Below are positions 3,436 to 23,613 of a stretch of 28,313 bases of DNA, one piece after another. Below the pieces are notes generated by a model, which did not search any database, had not been told where the DNA came from, and worked only from the letters and a program-made list of their open reading frames with translations. Origin of the DNA: a virus; IMG/VR virus record IMGVR_UViG_3300028596_000053, positions 1 to 28,313 of that record. One strand, 5' to 3'. Positions within the stretch are counted from its first letter, which is position 1. Each line of letters starts with the position of its first letter. Both the position numbers and the translations under genes were made by a program.

Positions 3436-4410
3436 CTACCTCACTGTCAGGGTGCGATGCTCGGCCGGCACGGTGAGTCGTCGGCGCTCGGCGGGGATCG
3501 TGTAGGTGCGTTCCGGGCTTGGCGTGACATCGGTCGGCACGGTGAGCGGGCGCGCTGTGTCGATCTCCAGCGCGGGCGGCAGGGCCGCGGTCTTGGAGCC
3601 GACCAGCGGTTGCGCCCCTTCGATGGATTCGGCGGCGCTGAGCGTGGCTGTCTTTACCCCGGTGAGCGCCTGGGCGGTGTCCTGCTCGGTAGCGGGTGTG
3701 AGCGTGGCAGCCTTCGTGCCCGTGAGGGGCTGCGCGGTTTCGACGGTGCCGGCGATACCGATCGTTGCGGTCTTGGCGCCGGAGAGACTCTGCGCCGCGT
3801 CCTGCTCTGTGGCCGGGGAGAGCGCTGCGGCCTTGGCTCCGACGAGCGTCTGTGCGGCGTCGGTTTCCGAGGCGGGGCTGAGGGTTGCGCCGGCGACGAT
3901 GTCCGCGGCGGCGAAGTCGTCGTACCTGATGGTCCCGGCCGACTCGGAGCGGATGCCGACGCTGGTGCCGGTCGTGACGCTGGTGTCGGTGACCGAGACG
4001 CGCTCAACGCCGTTGACGAGCGCCTTGATGGTGCTGCCGACGGCCTGCACGCGCCCGACGTCGCCTGGTGCGGCTGCGGCGGCGTAGCTGCCGATGACGC
4101 TGAAGCTTCCGCCTACGACAGAGAACAGGTCCCAGCTGCTTCCGTCGTTGCGCCACAAGTAGCCCTGCGAGATGTTGCTGTTGCCTCTGCACCACACGCC
4201 CATGCTGGCAGGCGCGGTGGCGGCGATCGTGACCTGCGCGTAGTGGTCGGCGGTGTCCATCGCCCCGCCCGCGCGCAGGATGATCGTGCCGCCCGCTGCG
4301 CCCGGCGACAGCTGGTTGGACACGATGGACCAGTCGCCGCTGACCTCGACCCACCCGGCGCCCAGGTCGGATGAGTTGGCCCTGTTGAAGTCGTCGGTGA
4401 AGGTCGCCAT
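3436..4410 (-). CDS. Lectin/LamG-like virion protein with six 20-residue repeats (324 aa)
   Basis: Residues 1-172 start FTDDFNRANSSDLGAGWVEV and look like a concanavalin A/LamG-type beta-sandwich as found in phage fibres (W-rich strands, a final YDDF strand at 163-166). Residues 175-294 are six tandem 20-residue units of the type ATLTPATEQDTAQALTGVKT, exactly in register. The C-terminus (295-324) carries shorter repeats (TIPAERR, TVPAEHRT). The domain layout suggests a carbohydrate-binding head on an extended repeat stalk, or the reverse, attached to the virion. It lies between two other probable structural genes in the late operon. Whether it sits on head or tail cannot be read from the sequence. 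There is no enzymatic motif. It might itself be glycosylated (Ser/Thr-rich repeats). Confidence 0.7.
   Translation of the reverse strand: MATFTDDFNRANSSDLGAGWVEVSGDWSIVSNQLSPGAAGGTIILRAGGAMDTADHYAQVTIAATAPASMGVWCRGNSNISQGYLWRNDGSSWDLFSVVGGSFSVIGSYAAAAAPGDVGRVQAVGSTIKALVNGVERVSVTDTSVTTGTSVGIRSESAGTIRYDDFAAADIVAGATLSPASETDAAQTLVGAKAAALSPATEQDAAQSLSGAKTATIGIAGTVETAQPLTGTKAATLTPATEQDTAQALTGVKTATLSAAESIEGAQPLVGSKTAALPPALEIDTARPLTVPTDVTPSPERTYTIPAERRRLTVPAEHRTLTVR
3529..3888 (-). repeat. Six tandem 60-bp coding repeats
   Basis: Six consecutive 60-bp units encode residues 175-294 of the lectin-like protein. The consensus is roughly A-T-L-S/T-P-A-x-E-x-D-x-A-Q-x-L-x-G-x-K-x. Units 1, 2 and 4 are closest to each other, unit 3 diverges at its start (ATIGIAGTVE) and unit 6 ends in VPTD instead of the GxK motif, as expected at the edge of an array. 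The period is exact, with no indel. Confidence 0.85.
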
Positions 4411-4881: not shown

Positions 4882-5214
4882 TTACAGCTCGATGTGCTCA
4901 AGGAACGGGCGAGCGCGTGCCGGGATAGCACGCGGGGCCGGCGGCTCCAAGCCGGCCTTGCGGATGTAGCCGACGAGCCGGCCGCGGTCGTCGACGAGCC
5001 AGGCGATCGCGGCACCTTGGCCGGTGAGCTGCTCCTGCTGCAGGTCGAGCTTCTCGCCCTGTCGCTTCAGCTCCTTGTCCATGCGGTCCGTGACCACGGA
5101 GAAGTCGTCACGCTTCTCCTGTCGCTTGGTGCGGCGGGCGGACCGGGCGGCAACCACACCGCCCGCTGCGCCTACGATCGCCAGCCCTGCCTGAACCCAG
5201 GTGTCGACGGTCAT
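4882..5214 (-). CDS. Single-pass membrane protein with coiled coil, holin-accessory candidate (110 aa)
   Basis: Residues about 7-24 (QAGLAIVGAAGGVVAARS) form one hydrophobic segment, followed at once by a strongly basic patch (ARRTKRQEKR) and a helical, Gln/Lys-rich stretch (about 40-68) likely to form a coiled coil, then a Pro/Arg-rich tail. The topology would be N-out/C-in by the positive-inside rule. It resembles small membrane proteins (DUF2746-like) found next to actinophage lysis genes. The start overlaps the stop of the four-helix membrane protein in ATGA (5211-5214), showing coupling. A role in holin timing or as an antiholin or spanin-like factor is inference from its place after endolysin and holin. 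Confidence 0.65.
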   Translation of the reverse strand: MTVDTWVQAGLAIVGAAGGVVAARSARRTKRQEKRDDFSVVTDRMDKELKRQGEKLDLQQEQLTGQGAAIAWLVDDRGRLVGYIRKAGLEPPAPRAIPARARPFLEHIEL

Positions 5215-5636
5215 GCGTTGCTCACTCTCTTCATACGGGGCGGCTCACGCCATCCCGCCACTACCAGCACGGGTACGGCGATCACCGCCCATACGAGAGC
5301 GGCAACCCACCCTCTCGGGAAGTCGCCCGCGATCCATGCCCCGAGGTAGGAGGCCATCCAGGGCAGCACCATCAGCGGCAGCGCCAGGAACCCGGGCCAG
5401 TCGAGGCCCTGCGGCATCCAGGCGGAGACGATCGCGACGAGCCCGGTGGCCACCCACAGCCAGCCCCACACGGTGAGCGACACCAGCTCCAGAAGGGGCT
5501 GGAGGCCGCGCTGGTCGGGCTGTGGGGAGGTGATCTGCGCGAAGCCGTAGAGGCTCCACACGGTGCCGTAGCTGAGGAGGATGGCGCCGCGGCGGCCCAG
5601 CGTTCTGCCCAGCCGCCGGACCACACGGCGCGGCAC
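5211..5636 (-). CDS. Four-helix integral membrane protein in the lysis module (141 aa)
   Basis: A basic N-terminus (PRRVVRRLGRTLGRRG) precedes four hydrophobic segments at about 17-36, 51-72, 83-103 and 109-128, and a basic tail (REPPRMKR). GTG 5636 abuts the holin stop with no gap, and its own stop overlaps the next start. It could be a second holin, an antiholin or a membrane protein involved in superinfection exclusion. No family signature beyond the hydrophobic pattern is recognised, so only membrane localisation is certain. Confidence 0.65.
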   Translation of the reverse strand: MPRRVVRRLGRTLGRRGAILLSYGTVWSLYGFAQITSPQPDQRGLQPLLELVSLTVWGWLWVATGLVAIVSAWMPQGLDWPGFLALPLMVLPWMASYLGAWIAGDFPRGWVAALVWAVIAVPVLVVAGWREPPRMKRVSNA

Positions 5637-5984
5637 TCAGACCCCCGCCGGCGCGTCCGGCTTGGACGGCGTCACCTGGACGCGAGTCAGCAGGGTGAGC
5701 CCGGCGAGGATCACGCCGTTGATGGCAGCCACCGTTGCCGGCGAGGCCTCGTACCCGAAGGTGGCAACGAGGGAGGCGCCCGCCGCAGTGACGGCGGTGA
5801 AGGCTTGCGGGGCGATCGGCCTGGTCATCGCTGCGGCGATGGCGCCGAGGATGGCGGTGGCGAAGCCGACGATGCCGCCGGCCATCTCGTCGGTCAGGCC
5901 CGTGATGCCGAGCGCAACGACCAGGCCCAGCGCGGCCGACAGGGCGTTCATGACAACGACCGGTTCTCTGCCGAAGAGCTTCAT
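5637..5984 (-). CDS. Holin (115 aa)
   Basis: A short basic/acidic start (MKLFGREP) is followed by hydrophobic segments at about 12-30, 34-52, 62-78 and 86-101, with AAMTRPIAPQAFTAVTAAG in the middle and a Pro/Lys-rich hydrophilic tail (TPSKPDAPAGV). This is the look of the holin commonly encoded after the amidase in Streptomyces phages. Its role would be to permeabilise the cytoplasmic membrane at a set time and release or activate the endolysin. It starts 15 nt after the endolysin stop in the same minus-strand operon. It is called on topology, length and position rather than on catalytic motifs. Confidence 0.75.
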   Translation of the reverse strand: MKLFGREPVVVMNALSAALGLVVALGITGLTDEMAGGIVGFATAILGAIAAAMTRPIAPQAFTAVTAAGASLVATFGYEASPATVAAINGVILAGLTLLTRVQVTPSKPDAPAGV

Positions 5985-5999
5985 GTCGGATCCGTTCTC

Positions 6000-6785
6000 T
6001 CAGACGTTGGGGACCTGGAGCTTGCTCCAGGTGGTCGGTCCGGGCGGCCACTTGGCTGCCGCGCCGGTGTAGCCGCACTTGCGCTGCCACGCTTCGTAGG
6101 AGTCGACGTCGGCCTGGCCGAGGGTCGGGCCAGGGCCGACCCTGTAGCGCCCGCAGCCCACGGCAACGAGCCGCTTGCCCATCGCGGTGAAGATCGGCGA
6201 CTGCTTGCCGAGGGCGGGCTTGCCGCTCTTCATGAAGAACGACTCACCGGGGTACGGCTCGTGCTTCGGCTTGGCCGGCGCTTCGGGCCGCGGCGCACCC
6301 TTCTGCACCCAGGAGTACAGGGCCGGGCCGGGGCATGCAGTGGCGTAGCCGTCCTTGTGCCCCTTGATCTCGGTGCCGGCGCCGTTCTTGCGCAGCAGTT
6401 CGATGCCGTCGCGGATGGCACCGAGCATGGCGTCCGTCGGCTTAGTCAGGCCCTCGCTGCCGACGAGTCCGACGATCGCGTAGTGCGCGGCGTTCAGCGC
6501 CTGGTTGCCGTTGGCGCCGGTCCGCTTCCGCAGGCCGCGCCCCTCCAGCAGGTACCCGTGCGGGCAGGCCCCGTAGTTGTAGGCGATGTCGGAGTAGTTC
6601 TCCTTCGTGTTCGCCAGGTGGGCCTTGCGGATGGCCTTCCACTCCGCGATGCATTCGGCGTGGTCGGTGAGCAGGGTCGTACTCACAGCCGTGCCTTCGT
6701 AGTGGACCTTGACGCCCTTCGTGGACGCCTGTCCGGGCGCGGCTGATGCGGGCCAGCCGAGTTGTGCTCTGGTGACGAGCTTCAT
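6000..6785 (-). CDS. Endolysin: N-acetylmuramoyl-L-alanine amidase with cell-wall binding domain (261 aa)
   Basis: MKLVTRAQLGWP is the typical start of the PGRP/amidase_2 fold. Putative zinc ligands are H28 (VHYEG), H143 (KGHKDG) and C151 (TACPG), with ENYSDIAYNYGACPHGYLLE around 62-81 forming the catalytic floor. A Pro/Lys linker (164-180) leads to a C-terminal domain (about 186-261: GKRLVAVGCGRYRVGPGPTL, DSYEAWQRKCGY) like the peptidoglycan-binding ends of Streptomyces phage lysins. The enzyme would cut the amide bond between muramic acid and the stem peptide. ATG 6785 is preferred over the upstream 6839 start because AGGAG lies 6 nt before it and the fold begins there. It is the first gene of the lysis operon, behind a good minus-strand promoter. 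Confidence 0.92.
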   Translation of the reverse strand: MKLVTRAQLGWPASAAPGQASTKGVKVHYEGTAVSTTLLTDHAECIAEWKAIRKAHLANTKENYSDIAYNYGACPHGYLLEGRGLRKRTGANGNQALNAAHYAIVGLVGSEGLTKPTDAMLGAIRDGIELLRKNGAGTEIKGHKDGYATACPGPALYSWVQKGAPRPEAPAKPKHEPYPGESFFMKSGKPALGKQSPIFTAMGKRLVAVGCGRYRVGPGPTLGQADVDSYEAWQRKCGYTGAAAKWPPGPTTWSKLQVPNV

Positions 6786-6871
6786 CGAGGCTCCTATGTG
6801 CCGTGCGGGGCGTCCCTGTGGGCATCCCAGAGAACCCAAGACCTTTGAATCGTAGCCTGAGACCGGCCATT

Positions 6872-6902
6872 AACCTACGAATCACAGGTACGCTTGCGTC
6901 AG
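6872..6902 (-). promoter_or_regulatory. Promoter of the lysis operon (CTGACG-19-TAGGTT)
   Basis: On the minus strand CTGACG (6902-6897) and the consensus Streptomyces -10 TAGGTT (6877-6872) are spaced by 19 nt, leaving a leader of about 80 nt before the endolysin ATG. The plus-strand cassette begins on the other side. TACGCT (6889-6894) is a possible plus -10, but without a clear -35. Confidence 0.5.
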
Positions 6903-6922
6903 GTTCTGTCAGAGGGACCGGT

Positions 6923-6958
6923 GGCAGGGGTGTGGCCGTGCGGGTCTGCACCCCTGTC
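6923..6958 (+). promoter_or_regulatory. Hairpin in the leader of the glycosylation cassette
   Basis: CAGGGGTG (6925-6932) and CACCCCTG (6949-6956) form a perfect 8-bp stem with a 16-nt loop; outer bases extend it with one G-T wobble. It lies between the divergent promoter region and the first cassette gene (7012). It could be a terminator protecting the two opposed units, an attenuator or an RNA-stabilising structure. No U-run follows. Confidence 0.4.
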
Positions 6959-7011
6959 ACTCCAACACCCGCGCCCCACCCGCACACGAAACCCCGCACA
7001 GGAGCACGCCC

Positions 7012-7269
7012 ATGAGCAGATGGGACGAAGAACGCGACCGCGTCTACGGCGCCGTCGCTGAAGCAGTCCGCGACCTTCGCGGCGGCATGCTCGTGAGCAG
7101 CGTCGTCATCGCCGTCACGGTCAACGACGAGGGCGAGAAGACCATCTCCTGCTGGCCGAGCCCAGACCAGCGGCATTGGGAGACCATCGGCCTCGTCGAG
7201 TACGTGCGCATGGACCACGGCGCCTACCTCACCGAACGCCGAGTCGTTGACGACGGGGAGAAGCCGTGA
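7012..7269 (+). CDS. Small hypothetical protein, first gene of the cassette (85 aa)
   Basis: MSRWDEERDRVYGAVAEAVR forms an amphipathic helix. It is followed by beta-like segments (SSVVIAVTVNDEGEKTISCW, WETIGLVEYVRMDHGAYL) and an acidic/basic tail. The ATG at 7012 has AGGAG 7 nt upstream (7000-7004), the clearest ribosome binding site of the cassette, consistent with this being the leading gene. No catalytic residues or membrane segment are seen. It is coupled through a GTGA overlap to the next small gene. I do not recognise its family. Confidence 0.75.
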   Translation: MSRWDEERDRVYGAVAEAVRDLRGGMLVSSVVIAVTVNDEGEKTISCWPSPDQRHWETIGLVEYVRMDHGAYLTERRVVDDGEKP

Positions 7270-7373
7270 CCGTCATCTGCCAGGCGCTGGCACTCCTGTT
7301 CGCGATCGTCGCCCTCTCCCAGCCCGGCCAAGTCCACTACGAATACGCGACCGTTGCGCGGAGCAGCCGATGA
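7266..7373 (+). CDS. Small membrane peptide (35 aa)
   Basis: GTG at 7266 overlaps the preceding stop (GTGA, 7266-7269), and its stop overlaps the next ATG (ATGA, 7370-7373). The product is VTVICQALALLFAIVALSQP, a single hydrophobic helix, followed by a polar tail (GQVHYEYATVARSSR). Its double coupling makes it very likely to be translated. It would insert in the membrane as one short transmembrane segment or act as a signal-anchor-like peptide. It might anchor the cassette enzymes at the membrane, but that is inference. Confidence 0.6.
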   Translation: MTVICQALALLFAIVALSQPGQVHYEYATVARSSR

Positions 7374-7627
7374 GCGGGCCGTCGGACGACCTCTTCGTGG
7401 GCCAAGGTGCGATCGCAGACTCCGTCCTGCACTTGCCCAAGCCCGAGTTCCTGGTCTCGCTGCGGGAGGACGACGGCACGCTCATCGTTGGCATCCACGC
7501 CGACGGCAGCATCGCCACCGGCCCGCGCTACGAACCCGACGCCGCGGCCCGCGAGTTCTGGAACGCCGTCACCCGCGCAGCACAAGCCGCCAACCCATGG
7601 CAGAACACCAGCAAGGAGCAGGCATGA
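7370..7627 (+). CDS. Small hypothetical protein (85 aa)
   Basis: MSGPSDDLFVGQGAIADSVL begins the protein, followed by short beta strands (EFLVSLREDDGTLIVGIHAD, IATGPRY) and a C-terminal helix (DAAAREFWNAVTRAAQAANP). Proteins of this type, with the strand-turn-strand pattern LIVGIHADGSIATGP, are familiar as small phage hypotheticals of unknown role. The ATG overlaps the stop upstream and its stop overlaps the epimerase ATG (7624-7627), so all are coupled. A longer start at 7247 in this frame would overlap the previous two genes and is rejected. Confidence 0.7.
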   Translation: MSGPSDDLFVGQGAIADSVLHLPKPEFLVSLREDDGTLIVGIHADGSIATGPRYEPDAAAREFWNAVTRAAQAANPWQNTSKEQA

Positions 7628-8577
7628 AGGTTCTCGTTACCGGCGGCTCGGGCTTCATCGCCTCGTGGATCCGCAAGGAACTCATTGCGCACGGCCACAG
7701 CGTCCTCGTCATGGACCACCAGGACCGACGCCAGCAACTCGCCGACGGTGAGGAGTTCTTCCTCGGCGACGTCCGCGACGCCACCGCCGTCACCGAAGCC
7801 GCCGCCCACGTCGACGGGATCATCCACCTCGCCGCCGTCCTCGGCACGCAGGAGACCATCCACAATCCGCGACCGTCCGCCGAGACCAACATCCTCGGCT
7901 CACTCAACGTCTTCGAGGCCGGAACGCAGTACAACCTGCCCGTCGTCTACGCCGGAGTCGGCAACCACTTCATGCGGCTGCAAGGCACCGGCTGCTACAC
8001 GATCACCAAGTCGGCCGCCGAAGACCTCGCCCGGATGTACAACGCCTACCGGCACGGCGGCCGCATCACGATCGTCCGCCCGGTCAACGCCTACGGCCCC
8101 GGGCAGAGCGTCGCCGAGCCCTACGGCACGAGCAAGGTACGGAAGATCCTCCCCGCGCTCTCATGCCGCGCCCTCGTCGGCAACCCGATCGAGGTGTACG
8201 GCGACGGCACCCAGATCAGCGACTGCGTGTACGTCGCCGACGTCGCCCGCACCTTCGTCACCGCGCTCGAGCACACCGCCACCCAAGGCCCAACCGAGAA
8301 GCCGGTGGAGGTCGGCCCACTCGAGTCAGTCACCGTCAACGACATCGCCCGCCTCGTCGCCGAAGAAGCCACCCGCTACACCGGCCGCGAACCCGTCGCC
8401 ATCAAACACCTCCCCATGCGGCCCGGCGAAGTCCCCAACGCCGTCGTCTCCTCCGACACCACCACCCTCCAGCAGATCGGCATGACCGCCGCCGACTTCG
8501 TCCCCCTCGACGAAGGCATCCACCACACCGTCCGCTACTACGCCGAGCACTGGCTCCCCGGATACCTGGCGGCCTGA
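7624..8577 (+). CDS. NAD(P)-dependent nucleotide-sugar epimerase/dehydratase, extended SDR (317 aa)
   Basis: An N-terminal Rossmann motif MKVLVTGGSGFIASWIRKEL (GxxGFIA), then IIHLAA (66-71), Y125-x3-K129 in CYTITKSAAE, RPVNAYGPGQ (152-161) and VYGDGTQISDCVYVADVART (191-210) are the ordered landmarks of the extended SDR family acting on NDP-sugars (4,6-dehydratases, 4-epimerases). Odd: the strand that normally ends in SSS and supplies the catalytic Ser/Thr reads VVYAGVGNH (107-115), so that residue seems lost. Length is normal for the family (about 310-330). The ATG at 7624 overlaps the preceding stop. It presumably makes or modifies the donor sugar for the glycosyltransferases that follow. 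Exact substrate cannot be assigned. Confidence 0.85.
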   Translation: MKVLVTGGSGFIASWIRKELIAHGHSVLVMDHQDRRQQLADGEEFFLGDVRDATAVTEAAAHVDGIIHLAAVLGTQETIHNPRPSAETNILGSLNVFEAGTQYNLPVVYAGVGNHFMRLQGTGCYTITKSAAEDLARMYNAYRHGGRITIVRPVNAYGPGQSVAEPYGTSKVRKILPALSCRALVGNPIEVYGDGTQISDCVYVADVARTFVTALEHTATQGPTEKPVEVGPLESVTVNDIARLVAEEATRYTGREPVAIKHLPMRPGEVPNAVVSSDTTTLQQIGMTAADFVPLDEGIHHTVRYYAEHWLPGYLAA

Positions 8578-8578
8578 C

Positions 8579-9601
8579 GTGGCGCGGATCCACTTCTGGA
8601 CAGCCGACGGCGCTGGCTCCGCGATGTACCGCGGCGTGCTCCCCGCCATGTCCCTGGACTGGCTCGGGCACGCCGCAAGCGCCCACCCGCGCCTACCCGA
8701 AGACTGGCGCGAGCAAGGCCTGGACGTCGTCGTCGGCTGCCGCGTCGCCAAGCCAGCCGTGTCCCAGACATGGCGGGAGATGCGCGACGCCGGCATCCGC
8801 CTGGTGATGGATCTCGACGACGACTACCTGCACATCGACCGCAGCAACGCCGAGGCGTACCGGGTGTGGAACACGCCCCTGCTGCGGCGCGGCCTCATCG
8901 ACAACATGCAAGTCGCGCACACAGTCACCTGCTGCTCCGAGCCGCTAGCCGCCGTGCTGCGCGACTACCACAACGACGTCCGTGTCGTCCCCAACGGGTT
9001 GCCCGCCCAGTACCTGGGGGAACCCCGCGACTACAACCCGGACGTCCTCAAGGTTGGCTGGGCGGGTACGGGGTCCACGGTCCACGAACTACAGGTGCCA
9101 GGCGTCGTCCGGGCCCTGAACCGGATCGCCGACTACAGGCGGCCGGGCGGCGTGCTGGTGCGGCTGGTCGGAGCCGACCCGCAGACCGCCATGCGCGCTG
9201 GCCTTCAGGGTGAGCGGCTCGGCGCGATGGGCTGGGTGGAGAACTTCGGGCACTACCTGCAAGCCGTGGGCGGGTTCGACGTGTGGTGCGCCCCGTACCG
9301 GGACACAGCGTTCAACCGGGCGAAGTATCCGACCAAGTTCCTCGAGTCGTCGATCCTCGGGATCCCGCTGGTCGCATCGGACATCGAGCCGTACCGGCGC
9401 GTGATCCGGCATGGGGAGAACGGCTTCCTCGTCCGCCACGAGCACGAGTGGGGGCGCATCCTCAAGCAGCTGGCAGACGACCCGGAGTTGCGGCAGCGAG
9501 TGGGCATGACCGCCCGCGGGGAAGCATCGGCGTCCATCCTCCAGGCCGTCAACCAGCAGTGGCAGGCCGCGCTCACCATGCCAGCGGGGGTGGCGGCGTG
9601 A
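8579..9601 (+). CDS. Glycosyltransferase, GT-B fold, GT4-like (340 aa)
   Basis: Two Rossmann-like halves are visible. The N-terminal half has HFWTADGAGSAMYRGVLPAM at 5-24 (the glycine-rich acceptor loop) and MDLDDDYLHID (77-87). The linker carries VPNG (137-140). The C-terminal half opens with VGWAGTGSTVHEL (159-171), followed by FDVWCAPY (233-240) and the donor-binding KFLESSILGIPLVASDIEPY (253-272) with GENGFLV. These are the hallmarks of retaining GT-B enzymes of the GT4 type, acting at the membrane or cytosol with an NDP-sugar donor. GTG 8579 follows the epimerase stop by one base. The short DDDYLHID motif is also seen in phage-encoded glycosyltransferases. Donor and acceptor are unknown. 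Confidence 0.85.
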   Translation: MARIHFWTADGAGSAMYRGVLPAMSLDWLGHAASAHPRLPEDWREQGLDVVVGCRVAKPAVSQTWREMRDAGIRLVMDLDDDYLHIDRSNAEAYRVWNTPLLRRGLIDNMQVAHTVTCCSEPLAAVLRDYHNDVRVVPNGLPAQYLGEPRDYNPDVLKVGWAGTGSTVHELQVPGVVRALNRIADYRRPGGVLVRLVGADPQTAMRAGLQGERLGAMGWVENFGHYLQAVGGFDVWCAPYRDTAFNRAKYPTKFLESSILGIPLVASDIEPYRRVIRHGENGFLVRHEHEWGRILKQLADDPELRQRVGMTARGEASASILQAVNQQWQAALTMPAGVAA

Positions 9602-9789
9602 CCGGACCTGACCACTACAGCGAGGGCGACCGCCTCCTCGAGCGCTGCTCCAAGATGATCGAGGGCAGCGACGGCCGCGCCAAGATGGCCGCCGAAGCGC
9701 AAGCCCACCTCACCGCCGCACTCGTCGCCTGCCTCGCCGCAAGCCAGCACCCCGAAAGCACCTCTTGGGCCCAGGCGGTCGAGTCGTGA
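9598..9789 (+). CDS. Small helical phage protein (63 aa)
   Basis: GTG 9598 overlaps the glycosyltransferase stop (GTGA), and its own stop overlaps the next GTG (9786-9789). VTGPDHYSEGDRLLERCSKM is followed by KMAAEAQAHLTAALVACLAA. The HYxxGDRLLE...A.AHLxAALVACLA pattern is a small, all-helical protein often found as an isolated phage gene with unknown function. It has two cysteines and no membrane segment or nucleotide-binding motif. It lies between a glycosyltransferase and an SDR enzyme, which suggests it could be a scaffold or regulator in the pathway, but this is unproven. Confidence 0.75.
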   Translation: MTGPDHYSEGDRLLERCSKMIEGSDGRAKMAAEAQAHLTAALVACLAASQHPESTSWAQAVES

Positions 9790-10649
9790 ACATCCTCGTC
9801 ACAGGGGCCGCAGGATTCATCGGCCGCCATCTCACCAGAGCACTCGACACCCGTGGCCACACCGTGACCGCAGCAGACAAGAGGAACGGTCGCCCCACCA
9901 CCGACCTCGACGCCTTCCAGCGCACCCTGAGCGCCGTCGAGCCCGAGGTAATCGTGCACCTCGGCGCCTCCTGCTCCACCCAGGTCTCCCTTGCCGACCC
10001 GGCCGCCGACTTCCACGACAACGCAATCGGCACCTTCAACGTCGTCGAAGCCGCACGCCGCGCCGGCGGCATTCCCGTGCTGTTCACGTCCAGCGTCAAG
10101 GTCTACCCGGGCCCCGACGGGCTCATCGCCCCGCTCGGGCAGTCGAAGCTGGTGGGCGAGCAGTACCTGCGCCTGTATGGCGACCTCTACGGCCTGCCGC
10201 ACGTCATACTCCGCCCGTCCACCGTGTACGGCCCCGGACAGGACGGCACCGCCGAGGCCGGCTGGGTGACCTGGTTCCTGCGCGCGTTCTGGGAGTGGAA
10301 GCAGATCACTGTCCACGGAGACGGCACCCAGTCCCGCGACATCCTCTACATCGACGACTGCACGCAACTCCTCGTCGACATCGTCGAACACTTCGACGCC
10401 TACCAGGGCCGCACCTACGACGTCGGGGGCGGACCGGACAACGAGGTGAGCCTCCTCGACCTCCTCTCCGGGCTGGAGATGTCCATCGGCGTGCGCCCCG
10501 ACGTCGTCCACGACGAGCGACTTCCCGGGGACTTGCAGCGCGTCGTCACCGACAACACGTCCATCAGCGGCGTGCGGGGCTGGAAGCCCACCACGCACTG
10601 GGTCGACGGCGTCCGGTCCACCCTCGACTGGATCGGAGAGCAGTGGTGA
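9786..10649 (+). CDS. NAD-dependent epimerase/dehydratase-like protein lacking the catalytic Tyr (287 aa)
   Basis: VNILVTGAAGFIGRHLTRAL has an intact GxxGxxG Rossmann motif (7-13). VIVHLGASCSTQ (56-67), VLFTSS (98-103), RPSTVYGPGQDG (143-154) and VHGDGTQSRDILYIDDC (176-192) follow the extended SDR order. The catalytic motif should read PYGxSK, but the sequence is APLGQSKLVGE (115-125): Leu117 replaces the general-acid/base Tyr while Ser and Lys remain. It may therefore be inactive as a canonical SDR, use another residue, or function with the first SDR. The GTG start overlaps the previous stop. Length is slightly short for the family. Its position between glycosyltransferases argues for an NDP-sugar role or an evolved binding role. 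Confidence 0.85.
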   Translation: MNILVTGAAGFIGRHLTRALDTRGHTVTAADKRNGRPTTDLDAFQRTLSAVEPEVIVHLGASCSTQVSLADPAADFHDNAIGTFNVVEAARRAGGIPVLFTSSVKVYPGPDGLIAPLGQSKLVGEQYLRLYGDLYGLPHVILRPSTVYGPGQDGTAEAGWVTWFLRAFWEWKQITVHGDGTQSRDILYIDDCTQLLVDIVEHFDAYQGRTYDVGGGPDNEVSLLDLLSGLEMSIGVRPDVVHDERLPGDLQRVVTDNTSISGVRGWKPTTHWVDGVRSTLDWIGEQW

Positions 10650-11398
10650 AAGTCGGCATCCTCATCCCCGCCCGCAACGCCCTCTCCTACCTCGCCACGA
10701 TGCTCGGATCCATCGCGCGGCAGACACATCCCGTGCACACGTACATCGTCGAGGACCGCGGCGACGACGGCACCTACGACTGGCTGCGGCAGAACCCCGA
10801 CTGCTGGTCCGGCATGCGGCGCAACCGTGTACGGAAAGGCTGGGCCGGCACCCTCAACGCCGCAGCGGCACTAGCCCTGGACGACGGATGCGACGCCATC
10901 TTCACTGCGTCCGCCGACGACCGGCTGCACCCCAAGTGCATCGCCCGCTGCGTCGCGCGCCTTGAGAGTGGCCTGGACTTCGTCGTCCCCTACGCCCAGC
11001 AGTTCGGCGAGGCCGACCACGTGCAGGCATCCCTGCCCGACTGCGGGCTTGACGATCTGGTGGTGTGGCCGCCGCTGATCGACAAGGCTCTGTTCCGGCG
11101 GGAGACGTGGGAGGCGGTCGGCGGTTACAGCCCCAAGGCCACCCTGCCCGGCAACTACGGCAGCGCGGAGGACTGGGAGTTCTGGATCCGTGTCTGGAAG
11201 GCCGGGCTCACCCGCTACGCGGTGATTGAGCAGCCGCTGTACTTCGTGCGCGTTCATCCCGGCCAACTGTCGCACGACCGCGGCGACGTGCATGCCGCCA
11301 CCATCGCCCTGTTCCGCAAGCTGCACCCAGACCTGCCGTGGACCGCCGACTCCGGCGTCTGGCCACCCCGGCATCGAACAACCAGGAGGACCACATGA
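10646..11398 (+). CDS. Family 2-type glycosyltransferase, GT-A fold (250 aa)
   Basis: VKVGILIPARNALSYLATML with IVEDRGDDGTYDWL (34-47) is the N-terminal nucleotide-binding half of GT2 enzymes. IFTASADDRLHP (85-96) holds the DxD-like ADD metal/nucleotide motif. RRETWEAVGGY (151-161), SAEDWEFWIRV (173-183; the ED catalytic-base region) and VRVHPGQLSHD (201-211) complete the pattern. It would transfer a sugar from an NDP donor with inversion. There is no membrane segment, so it is cytosolic or peripheral. It starts at GTG 10646 in a GTGA overlap and ends in ATGA with the next gene. The acceptor is unknown: virion protein, host wall polymer or DNA. Confidence 0.85.
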   Translation: MKVGILIPARNALSYLATMLGSIARQTHPVHTYIVEDRGDDGTYDWLRQNPDCWSGMRRNRVRKGWAGTLNAAAALALDDGCDAIFTASADDRLHPKCIARCVARLESGLDFVVPYAQQFGEADHVQASLPDCGLDDLVVWPPLIDKALFRRETWEAVGGYSPKATLPGNYGSAEDWEFWIRVWKAGLTRYAVIEQPLYFVRVHPGQLSHDRGDVHAATIALFRKLHPDLPWTADSGVWPPRHRTTRRTT

Positions 11399-12258
11399 TC
11401 GACGGCAAGCGCGTGGTGGCGTGGACCCCCTACGGCCGCCGCAGGACGTACAGCATCCTCATCAAGTACCTGCAGCGGGACGTTGAGCGCGGCCTCGTCG
11501 ACGAGGTGTGGGCGTACATGAATACCGACCCCATCGGTCAGGAAGGCGACATCGCCTACGCCCACGAACTCGACGAGCAGTTCGGCTGGTTCCACCTCAA
11601 GCACCGGCCCGAAGGCATCAACCTCGGCAACCTGCCCAAGCAGAGGTACACAGGACTCGCCTACCGGGAGATGACCGACCCAGACACGATCTACGTCCGC
11701 ATGGACGACGACCTCGTCTACCTCCACGACGACGCCATCGAGAACCTGGTCCGCGCGCGCATCCAGATGCCGGCGCCGACCGCTGTGTTCCCGGTCATCT
11801 TCAACAACGCGATCTGCTCCCACTTCCTGCAGGCCTGCCAGAAGGTGCCGATGGAATGGGGTGCCGTGGCCCCGTACTGCATGGACCCGGTGGGCTGGGC
11901 CAACGGCCCGTTCGCAGTGAAGCTGCACGAACTCCTCCTCGACCACATCGAGGCGGGTACCGTGCCGGAGCTGTACCTGTACCAGGACTTCCCGATCCAG
12001 CCCGGCACCCAGTTCTCCGTGTCCTGCTTCGCATCTCGCGGCGAGGACTACGCGGCCCTCCCTCAGCCCGGCGTCCTCGTCCCTGACGAGGAGGAAAGCT
12101 GGCACACGATCCACCGGCCGCTCGCCACCGGGGCGCCGAACATCCTGCGCGGGGACGCCATCGTCAGCCACTGGAGCTTCTTCCCGCAGCACCCCTTCCT
12201 CAACAACACCGACCTCCTGGACCGATACCGGGAGCTCGCAGACAAGGCGGTCGCGTGA
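11395..12258 (+). CDS. Glycosyltransferase-like protein with DDD motif (287 aa)
   Basis: KRVVAWTPYGRRRTYSILIK begins a GT-A-like fold. VDEVWAYMNTDP (35-46) and DTIYVRMDDDLVYLHDDAIE (97-116), where the DDD (104-106) corresponds to the metal- and NDP-binding DxD, resemble phage and bacterial glycosyltransferases of the GT2 clan. The C-terminus is Trp/His-rich (ESWHTIHRPLATG, DAIVSHWSFFPQHPF), and VSHWSFFPQH may help shape the acceptor site. I am less sure of the family than for the two other transferases; another sugar-active or nucleotide-binding role is possible. Start overlaps the previous stop in ATGA. It is the third transferase-like gene and the last large gene of the cassette. Confidence 0.72.
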   Translation: MIDGKRVVAWTPYGRRRTYSILIKYLQRDVERGLVDEVWAYMNTDPIGQEGDIAYAHELDEQFGWFHLKHRPEGINLGNLPKQRYTGLAYREMTDPDTIYVRMDDDLVYLHDDAIENLVRARIQMPAPTAVFPVIFNNAICSHFLQACQKVPMEWGAVAPYCMDPVGWANGPFAVKLHELLLDHIEAGTVPELYLYQDFPIQPGTQFSVSCFASRGEDYAALPQPGVLVPDEEESWHTIHRPLATGAPNILRGDAIVSHWSFFPQHPFLNNTDLLDRYRELADKAVA

Positions 12259-12485
12259 TGGGCCAGCAGATCAGCATCGAGGATGCCCTCGCCGCGTTCC
12301 GTAAGCGGTACGGCGAGGTCGCCGACGAGAACGTCCTCCTGCGGGCCCACGTCTCCATCCTGGAGCAGCGGGTGGCCGCACTGGAGGAGGAGAACGCGGG
12401 GTTCCTGTCGGCGGCTCAGGGTCCTGCGGCTAGTGACTCCGATCCTGCGCCGGCCGACGGGTACGACGCGAGGAAGCGTAGTTAG
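12255..12485 (+). CDS. Small coiled-coil protein ending the cassette (76 aa)
   Basis: MGQQISIEDALAAFRKRYGE is followed by a heptad-rich stretch, NVLLRAHVSILEQRVAALEE (about 24-48), that should form a two-stranded coiled coil, then an unstructured Ala/Ser/Asp tail. GTG 12255 gives a 4-bp GTGA overlap with the previous stop; ATG 12258 is the alternative. It resembles the small coiled-coil proteins found in many phages with no assigned role. It might be an oligomerisation partner for the transferases. It ends only 10 nt before the convergent minus-strand gene. Confidence 0.7.
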   Translation: MMGQQISIEDALAAFRKRYGEVADENVLLRAHVSILEQRVAALEEENAGFLSAAQGPAASDSDPAPADGYDARKRS

Positions 12486-22933: not shown

Positions 22934-23613
22934 TTACACCTCCGCGCGTTCGATCAGTCCGGGGACCAGCAGGTTCATTGCGTCGACGGGCACGTCGGGC
23001 GTGGCGTCGCCTTGCGGGGGTGCGGGTTGGTCTTGCTGCTCGGCGTCCATGCGCGCGGCTACGACACTCCGGTAGGCGGGGAGTCGCACGGCGCGGGCGA
23101 GGAAGCGTTTGGCGCCGACCACGGTGCGGTCGAGGTCGATGCCGTAGACGGCTAGGAAGTCGGCGTCTAGGTCGTCGTAGTGGTCGACGATCCAGGCGTG
23201 GTCGGCGAGTCGCTGGGCGAAGCCGGTGAAGCTTTTCCCTGCTCGTCCTCGCCGGCCTCGCCCCTGGTGCGCTGGAAGAACAGGTCGTTCACCCGGGCGC
23301 TGATCTTGTCGAACTGGGCCTGGCTGATGCGCCGCTGTTCCAGCAGGGCGACGATCTTCCGGAACTGCGGTGTTCCCAGCAGCAGTTCGGTGAGGTACAT
23401 GGTTCCGAACAGGGCGCCCTCGGTGCGCATGTAGTTCATGGCGAGGAACACGATCCGCTCGTCCACGACCTTGGGGACGGTGATCTTCTCCCCGTCGATG
23501 GTGAAGAGCGTTCGGCGGTCCTCTGCCTCTTCCGCCGGCTCGGCCGTCGTGATCTCGAAGATCTCGTCGTCCTCGTGCGGGAGTGCGGGTCGCTCGGCGG
23601 ATGTCTTGGCCAT
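22934..23613 (-). CDS. Tail assembly chaperone fusion (gpG-gpT type), -1 frameshift product (226 aa)
   Basis: Ribosomes that slip back one base at GGGAAAA (23239-23233) join residues 1-127 of the short chaperone to a 99-residue extension (SFTGFAQRLADHAWIVDHYD ... NLLVPGLIERAEV) ending at 22934. The extension has no start of its own in this frame close to the junction and is strongly coding (helical, charged). This mirrors lambda gpG/gpGT: both forms bind tape measure and tail tube subunits and are left out of the mature tail. The fusion ends 4 nt before the tape measure start, the expected order. The heptamer sits in the correct zero frame (caG GGA AAA gct). Confidence 0.9.
23167..23613 (-). 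CDS. Tail assembly chaperone, unshifted form (148 aa)
   Basis: MAKTSAERPALPHEDDEIFE is acidic, followed by TLFTIDGEKITVPKVVDERI and the helical core LAMNYMRTEGALFGTMYLTE (to about residue 120). After the slippery site the zero frame continues into a low-complexity tail, SPASPSDSPTTPGSSTTTTT, before its stop, which is typical of the shorter partner. The gene lies between the major tail protein and the tape measure. Product ratio depends on frameshift efficiency at 23233-23239. Confidence 0.9.
   Translation of the reverse strand: MAKTSAERPALPHEDDEIFEITTAEPAEEAEDRRTLFTIDGEKITVPKVVDERIVFLAMNYMRTEGALFGTMYLTELLLGTPQFRKIVALLEQRRISQAQFDKISARVNDLFFQRTRGEAGEDEQGKASPASPSDSPTTPGSSTTTTT
23233..23239 (-). 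other. Programmed -1 ribosomal frameshift site GGGAAAA
   Basis: On the minus strand the heptamer G GGA AAA is in frame with the chaperone reading frame (residues 125-127, Q-G-K) and fits the X XXY YYZ rule. A slip of one base changes the next codon from GCT to AGC and opens 99 further codons. I did not find a long downstream hairpin by eye. Confidence 0.9.

Follow-up and report, generated by a model that had tools for sequence, protein, structure and literature searches.

Gene content and layout of the cassette

The window analysed here is the whole of an IMG/VR virus record of 28,313 bases (IMGVR_UViG_3300028596_000053). Its plus strand carries, from 7012 to 12485, a cassette of ten open reading frames (g1 to g10) that includes genes for nucleotide-sugar enzymes and glycosyltransferases (GTs) and is preceded by a divergent control region and a structured RNA leader. 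A first-pass annotation made from the letters alone had proposed these ten frames, and all were present at the positions claimed. Eight of the nine junctions between them are 4-nt overlaps and the ninth, g4/g5, is a 1-nt gap; g10 starts at GTG 12255 or ATG 12258. As also described there, the late genes on both sides lie on the minus strand: matches to PHROG families identified a minor tail gene (5211-5624), a holin gene (5637-5984) and an endolysin gene (6000-6785) on the left, and tail genes from 12496 on to the right. Codon-position GC content was coding-like in the eight cassette genes assessed in this way; the other two, g3 and g4, were both recovered by a codon-usage gene finder.

Relatives were collected by a scan with g9, which gave 37 IMG/VR loci, five loci in Streptomyces genomes and two remote Planctomycetota genes. 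Occurrences are given below for 34 intact distinct loci, window included; the presence of g9 in all of them follows from the construction of the search. SDR stands for short-chain dehydrogenase/reductase and E for expect value.

7012-7269, plus: g1, small protein of 85 amino acids (aa), present in this window only; weak match to DUF7213, below cut-off
7266-7373, plus: g2, 35 aa, hydrophobic N-terminal segment; 29/34 loci
7370-7627, plus: g3, small variable protein; 17/34 loci
7624-8577, plus: g4 (SDR1), nucleotide-sugar SDR; Pfam Epimerase, E 8.9e-39; phrog_540; 34/34 loci
8579-9601, plus: g5, GT-B enzyme, GT4-like; Pfam Glyco_trans_1_4, E 6.2e-10; phrog_7162; 34/34 loci
9598-9789, plus: g6, small protein of 63 aa; phrog_16141; 19/34 loci
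9786-10649, plus: g7 (SDR2), epimerase-like extended SDR; Pfam Epimerase, E 1.9e-46; 15/34 loci
10646-11398, plus: g8, GT2 enzyme; Pfam Glycos_transf_2, E 8.5e-12; 18/34 loci
11395-12258, plus: g9, predicted GT-A-fold glycosyltransferase; DDD motif invariant; 34/34 loci
12255 (or 12258)-12485, plus: g10, coiled-coil-like protein of 75-76 aa; 32/34 loci

Scans against Pfam, PHROG and NCBIfam upheld the identities of the two SDRs, the GT-B enzyme and the GT2 enzyme. No Pfam or NCBIfam family matched g9 and a PDB search by sequence was unsuccessful, unlike a search by fold: its AlphaFold (AF2) model had a predicted local distance difference test score (pLDDT) of 94.5 and a predicted template-modelling score (pTM) of 0.92, and the top solved structures found by Foldseek were mostly GT-A enzymes, including LH3, B4GALNT1, GlfT2 and ppGalNAc-T. 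On this model, g9, which the first-pass annotation had called a DDD-motif transferase-like protein, is a predicted GT-A-fold transferase with a DXD-type metal site, from a family outside Pfam coverage. Two extended SDRs, a GT-B enzyme, a GT2 enzyme and the GT-A fold of g9 together give good support to the idea of a dedicated sugar-modification system. A relationship to cell-wall enzymes that lack any phage connection was considered; the close relatives are phage proteins. SDR1 is 75% identical in nucleotides to gp156 of phage Quantum, and g5 shares 33% aa identity with gp5 of phage Zuko, together with a weak resemblance to PimA. Remote relatives of g9 occur in Planctomycetota (L047 and L048) and in Synechococcus phage B23 (gp354, L082), where the gene is part of a glycan cluster of this cyanophage that also has a thymidylyltransferase. 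A Pithovirus protein named methyltransferase (A0A481Z534) was a further fold match (template-modelling score 0.79).

Alignments showed that the classical Ser/Thr-Tyr-Lys triad is incomplete in both SDRs. SDR1 retains YxxxK, and in the aligned members its Ser/Thr catalytic position is replaced (VGN motif); SDR2 retains Ser and Lys, and its catalytic Tyr is replaced by Leu in a PLGxSK motif conserved in the family. The best PDB chain for SDR2 was a CDP-tyvelose 2-epimerase. SDR1, which would be a donor-sugar enzyme, also lies directly before g9 in the remote phages L039 and L040. In three relatives the SDR1 gene is interrupted in frame by an intein that has a LAGLIDADG-type domain (PYG|CVDPxTPVLC ... 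ASHN|SSKVRK; genes at L005:6604-8283, L014:6879-8570 and L036:6271-7947). Inteins usually reside in important proteins.

About 40 related loci of Streptomyces phages or prophages have the block in this position; in every Streptomyces-type relative with flanks, the cassette lies between lysis and tail genes and runs opposite to the late genes. This conservation rules out chance open reading frames, and the fixed position and orientation argue that the cassette is not a recent insertion. The first-pass description of a cassette inserted backwards is thus correct for the orientation and not for a recent insertion; the GC content of the cassette is also that of its flanks. An invertible or mobile insertion was rejected, since no long inverted or direct repeats were found in the flanks and the position is fixed in relatives, despite a small serine resolvase/invertase gene (1991-2578, minus) that adjoins the late region. 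An anti-phage defence system was likewise rejected, as none of the nine cassette proteins submitted to PADLOC matched a known defence family.

Conservation of the block's position did not extend to all its genes, and the term "closed ten-gene unit" was too strong. The near-constant core consists of SDR1, the GT-B enzyme g5, the GT-A-fold protein g9 and the small proteins g2 and g10; the other genes are modular, and g1 is private to the window. SDR2 and g8 form an optional pair: SDR2 was always followed by the GT2 gene with a 4-nt overlap (15/15) and stood directly before g8 in 15 of the 18 loci with g8 (co-occurrence, Fisher p = 4e-7), as would be expected if donor enzyme and transferase were exchanged as one module. 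In L007 a rhamnosyl O-methyltransferase/CmcI-type gene (8712-9350; PF04989, E 3e-47) stands before g9 in place of SDR2-GT2. Both the pairing and this replacement would fit glycan diversification. Identity to the window of g9 and SDR1 correlated weakly or not at all with tail identity, and that of g5 mildly, which suggests that the history of the cassette is partly uncoupled from that of the tail. Homing-like genes of HNH and endonuclease VII type were seen within the cassettes of L024, L026, L031, L032, L035, L044 and L046, and also at 1494-1961 of the window.

The divergent control region and the leader RNA

The strongest evidence on function comes from the 226-bp gap between the endolysin gene and g1, which lies outside the coordinates of the first-pass annotation and whose layout is kept even though the first cassette gene varies between phages. 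Two copies of a palindrome, CCTNNGAWTCNNAGG, stand 32 bp apart in this divergent promoter region.

6842-6856, minus: predicted operator site A, 15-bp palindrome, GCTACGATTCAAAGG in the minus direction, facing the endolysin-ward operon
6874-6888, plus: predicted operator site B, CCTACGAATCACAGG, facing the cassette
6889-6894, plus: TACGCT, directly after site B, a putative -10 element

A pattern search for the palindrome matched 17 of 17 long relatives, and a reversed-pattern control gave no matches. In 12 further regions, sites lay just upstream of a helix-turn-helix gene at the small-terminase (TerS) position and/or, in most of them, between the large-terminase and portal genes; site A matches in class and orientation the sites that precede the TerS-position gene and the portal gene in relatives. 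The orientation of all sites relative to the downstream late gene was constant, with one copy for each divergent operon at the cassette. Among 14 Streptomyces genomes the exact motif occurred five times, always in cassette carriers, where it lay at the cassette and/or at a distance of about 26-29 kb; it was absent from the 10 non-carriers. Sites before the TerS-position and portal genes and the occurrence in carriers only point to a phage-specific late-gene operator, and the cassette is probably part of the late regulon; on this sequence evidence, its expression would be late. Simple scans for sigma-70 promoters and intrinsic terminators gave no plus-strand match.

The group is temperate, judging from integrases in 11 of the 17 long relative records and from the five loci inside Streptomyces genomes. 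Both observations would also suit lysogenic conversion, in which the cassette is expressed in lysogeny, changes the surface sugars and excludes other phages, and morons are often oriented against the late genes. We consider this explanation very unlikely: operators common to the TerS-position gene, portal and endolysin operons indicate late co-regulation, and scans of the ten proteins revealed no membrane genes of the surface-conversion type. The cassette resembles the GtrABC serotype-conversion systems in that sugar-modifying genes are carried by temperate phages; it differs from them in having no GtrA flippase or membrane GtrB, and a late-shared operator instead of lysogenic expression. Pfam, PHROG and NCBIfam scans of the ten proteins gave no GtrA match, and the only GtrB-like match was that of g8 to phrog_841, at E 0.036.

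Downstream of site B, the region between the putative -10 element and g1 contains two adjacent hairpins followed by three repeats.

6902-6919, plus: hairpin 1; compensatory change on both sides at 4/5 pairs, pairing in 93% of cells
6921-6960, plus: hairpin 2, separated from hairpin 1 by one unpaired base; changes on both sides at 8 pairs of the stem (32 sequences)
6938-6945, plus: loop of hairpin 2, GTGCGGGT
6967-6973, 6978-6985 and 6991-6999, plus: ACCCGCAC-type repeats (in order ACCCGCG, ACCCGCAC and ACCCCGCAC), complementary to the loop of hairpin 2
7000-7004, plus: ribosome site AGGAG, abutted by the last repeat

The two-hairpin core had a folding z-score of -5.26 and the whole region from leader to start one of -0.03, the core alone being exceptional. 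In the alignment of 32 sequences, 94% of cells paired, compared with 87% after shuffling and 41-55% for slid structures, and 13 pairs changed on both sides (shuffled mean 6.7). The conserved loop, GUGCGGGU, is complementary to the ACCCGCAC repeats near the ribosome site, and 98% of cells retain this complementarity, also across a switch from GTGCGGGT/ACCCGCAC to TTGCGGGTT/AACCCGCAA; the loop-tail helix varies little, so its covariation support rests on few changes. As an alternative to pairing with the loop, the repeats may be DNA-binding sites. Two loci outside the training set, L079 and L080, had the operators with the same 32-bp spacing, the hairpins and the loop/repeat switch.

A covariance model of the leader gave one strong match per phage in the window and the 17 relatives, and none in Zuko or Quantum. 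Of 296 Streptomyces genomes it matched four, those in which g9 was also found, with the leader about 4-6 kb upstream of that gene; L079 and L080 belong to these four. A known Rfam element was rejected, since a search with the Rfam covariance models gave no match, and blastn of the leader against sequenced phages found no similarity. In ten relatives (L006, L007, L011, L014, L017, L018, L020, L023, L028 and L041) the start of the lysis operon carries ACCCGCATG, complementary to the cassette leader loop. Pairing in trans between the leader loop and this endolysin start region was not adopted, as it holds in only part of the relatives.

The put RNA of phage HK022 consists of two adjacent stem-loops in a phage transcript leader (PMC9378689). 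Two adjacent stem-loops, upheld by folding and covariation, were also found here, downstream of a putative transcript start. It is possible, if somewhat doubtful, that the leader acts chiefly as an antitermination element like put, with which polymerase would traverse the full operon in the direction of the head-on late operon; such a role is compatible with any of the readings of the cassette. The layout of two stem-loops one base apart within about 60 nt, as folded in the window, is near that of put (PMC9378689), and the leader is retained although the first gene differs between phages. On the other side, the leader has no Rfam match, and the conserved complementarity of its loop and tail, next to the ribosome site, suggests a role in translation. 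It also differs from put in belonging to a probably late rather than an early operon. The resemblance is a lead and is not put forward as membership of the put class. We propose tentatively, with rather less than even confidence, that the leader is a new cis-acting phage RNA class, two hairpins with loop-to-repeat pairing, which serves a glycosylation operon, is coupled to a new late operator and controls a modular virion-glycan locus with SDRs of non-canonical catalytic centre.

Proposed function and acceptors of the sugar

We favour, with somewhat better than even confidence, the view that temperate tailed phages of Streptomyces express the cassette late and use it to glycosylate their virions. 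The packaging and head genes, the endolysin/tail-end operon and the divergent cassette would be under the joint control of a phage-specific regulator that works through the CCTNNGAWTCNNAGG operators. The cassette transcript would begin with the two-hairpin leader, which may tune expression by pairing of loop and tail close to the first ribosome site, by an action on RNA polymerase, or by both, and the short gene overlaps would provide translational coupling along the operon. SDR1 would convert a host nucleotide sugar into the donor for the core transferases, g5 (GT-B) and g9 (GT-A), and these, in the cytoplasm, would assemble a short glycan on proteins of the virion; g2 and g10 would have accessory roles. 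The SDR2-GT2 module, or the rhamnosyl-type O-methyltransferase in L007, would be exchanged to alter the glycan and so generate diversity from phage to phage.

The first-pass annotation had left virion proteins, the host wall and superinfection exclusion as candidate targets. Late co-regulation, soluble enzymes and the absence of a thymidylate-synthase-type hydroxymethylase make virion proteins the most likely acceptor; the late-shared operator and the lack of a flippase-type component place the other two behind. In Zuko, SDR and GT genes lie just before the terminase, and the capsid protein is 59% identical to that of the window. Several observations weigh against virion glycosylation. First, a shared operator, whether activating or repressing, does not prove timing. 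Second, Ser/Thr-rich segments in the virion proteins of the window are only moderate. Third, the distant SDR1-g9 pair of L039 lies among DNA-metabolism genes, including a deoxynucleoside monophosphate (dNMP) kinase gene, and not among virion genes, and Zuko has a thymidylate-synthase-like gene. Finally, both SDRs lack one canonical catalytic residue, and their chemistry may differ from that of ordinary epimerases or dehydratases.

Two features of the virion genes, both on the minus strand, were observed in passing. The gene at 3436-4410 encodes a virion protein (phrog_2804) whose C-terminal half contains Ala/Thr-rich repeats and which may be a glycan acceptor. The genes at 23167-23613 and 22934-23122, between the probable major tail protein and the tape measure, resemble a pair of tail-assembly chaperone genes that a programmed frameshift may join.

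The position of the L039 pair, which adjoins recombination genes as well as the dNMP kinase gene, would suit transferases that modify hydroxylated bases of the phage DNA against restriction. This is a known activity of phage glycosyltransferases, and phrog_540, the family of SDR1, is filed under nucleotide metabolism. No PF00303 thymidylate-synthase-type base hydroxymethylase was found in the window or in any of the 17 relatives, with positive controls matched and with records that may be incomplete; a search for TET/JBP hydroxylases gave 0/21 matches, its positive control likewise giving none. A late regulon would moreover be late for replication, and we regard DNA glycosylation as the least probable of the explanations, marginally below lysogenic conversion.

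Modification of a host envelope glycan, teichoic acid or another wall polymer, late in infection would leave virions not trapped on debris or siblings unable to superinfect. Cytoplasmic nucleotide-sugar and GT enzymes could act on wall-polymer precursors before export, the cassette adjoins the lysis genes, g5 is weakly PimA-like and g2 is possibly a membrane peptide. The core, however, has no flippase and no polyprenol-linked or multi-membrane transferase, the match of g8 to phrog_841 being the nearest approach, and there would be little time late in infection to alter a wall already made. We consider a wall target unlikely, albeit less so than either lysogenic conversion or DNA glycosylation.

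Comparison with known phage systems

Virion glycosylation, the function favoured here, has precedents in actinobacterial phages. That phage transferases glycosylate capsid and tail-tube proteins is established for the mycobacteriophages Che8, Corndog and Myrna (Freeman et al. 2023, as cited in PMC12363180). The cassette is similar in that phage-encoded glycosyltransferases, recognized by Pfam and PHROG (g5, g8) or by fold (g9), are carried by actinobacterial phages and would probably modify virion proteins in the cytoplasm; this likeness is one of gene content, apart from any comparison with Che8 gp110 or Corndog gp38. It differs by its two SDRs, three GTs of different folds, small partners, late-shared operator and structured leader. 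Zuko and KimJongPhill have a nucleotide-sugar epimerase and a glycosyltransferase before the terminase, with a g5 relative of 32-33% aa identity and a related major capsid protein of 58-59%; they have these two enzymes only, the SDR beside the g5 relative of Zuko is of another type than SDR1, and Zuko has no leader of the cassette type. In Streptomyces phage Quantum (gp156-157) and Microbacterium phage Magritte (gp5-8), members of the SDR1 family with the VGN motif are followed by other transferase-like genes; the transferases differ, no g5 or g9 homologue was seen, and Quantum has no cassette-type leader.

The leader RNA and the operator are the most novel parts of the locus, which contributes a putative new phage RNA regulator and a GT-A family beyond Pfam. 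Virion glycosylation has been documented in few mycobacteriophages, and its control and sugar supply are poorly described. In this phage family the gene set is defined and swappable and includes the enzymes that would make its sugar donors; the operator makes the late regulon recognizable by sequence alone, and the covarying leader is open to deletion or mutation in prophages of non-pathogenic Streptomyces. The choice and variation of particle sugars by phages would thereby become testable.

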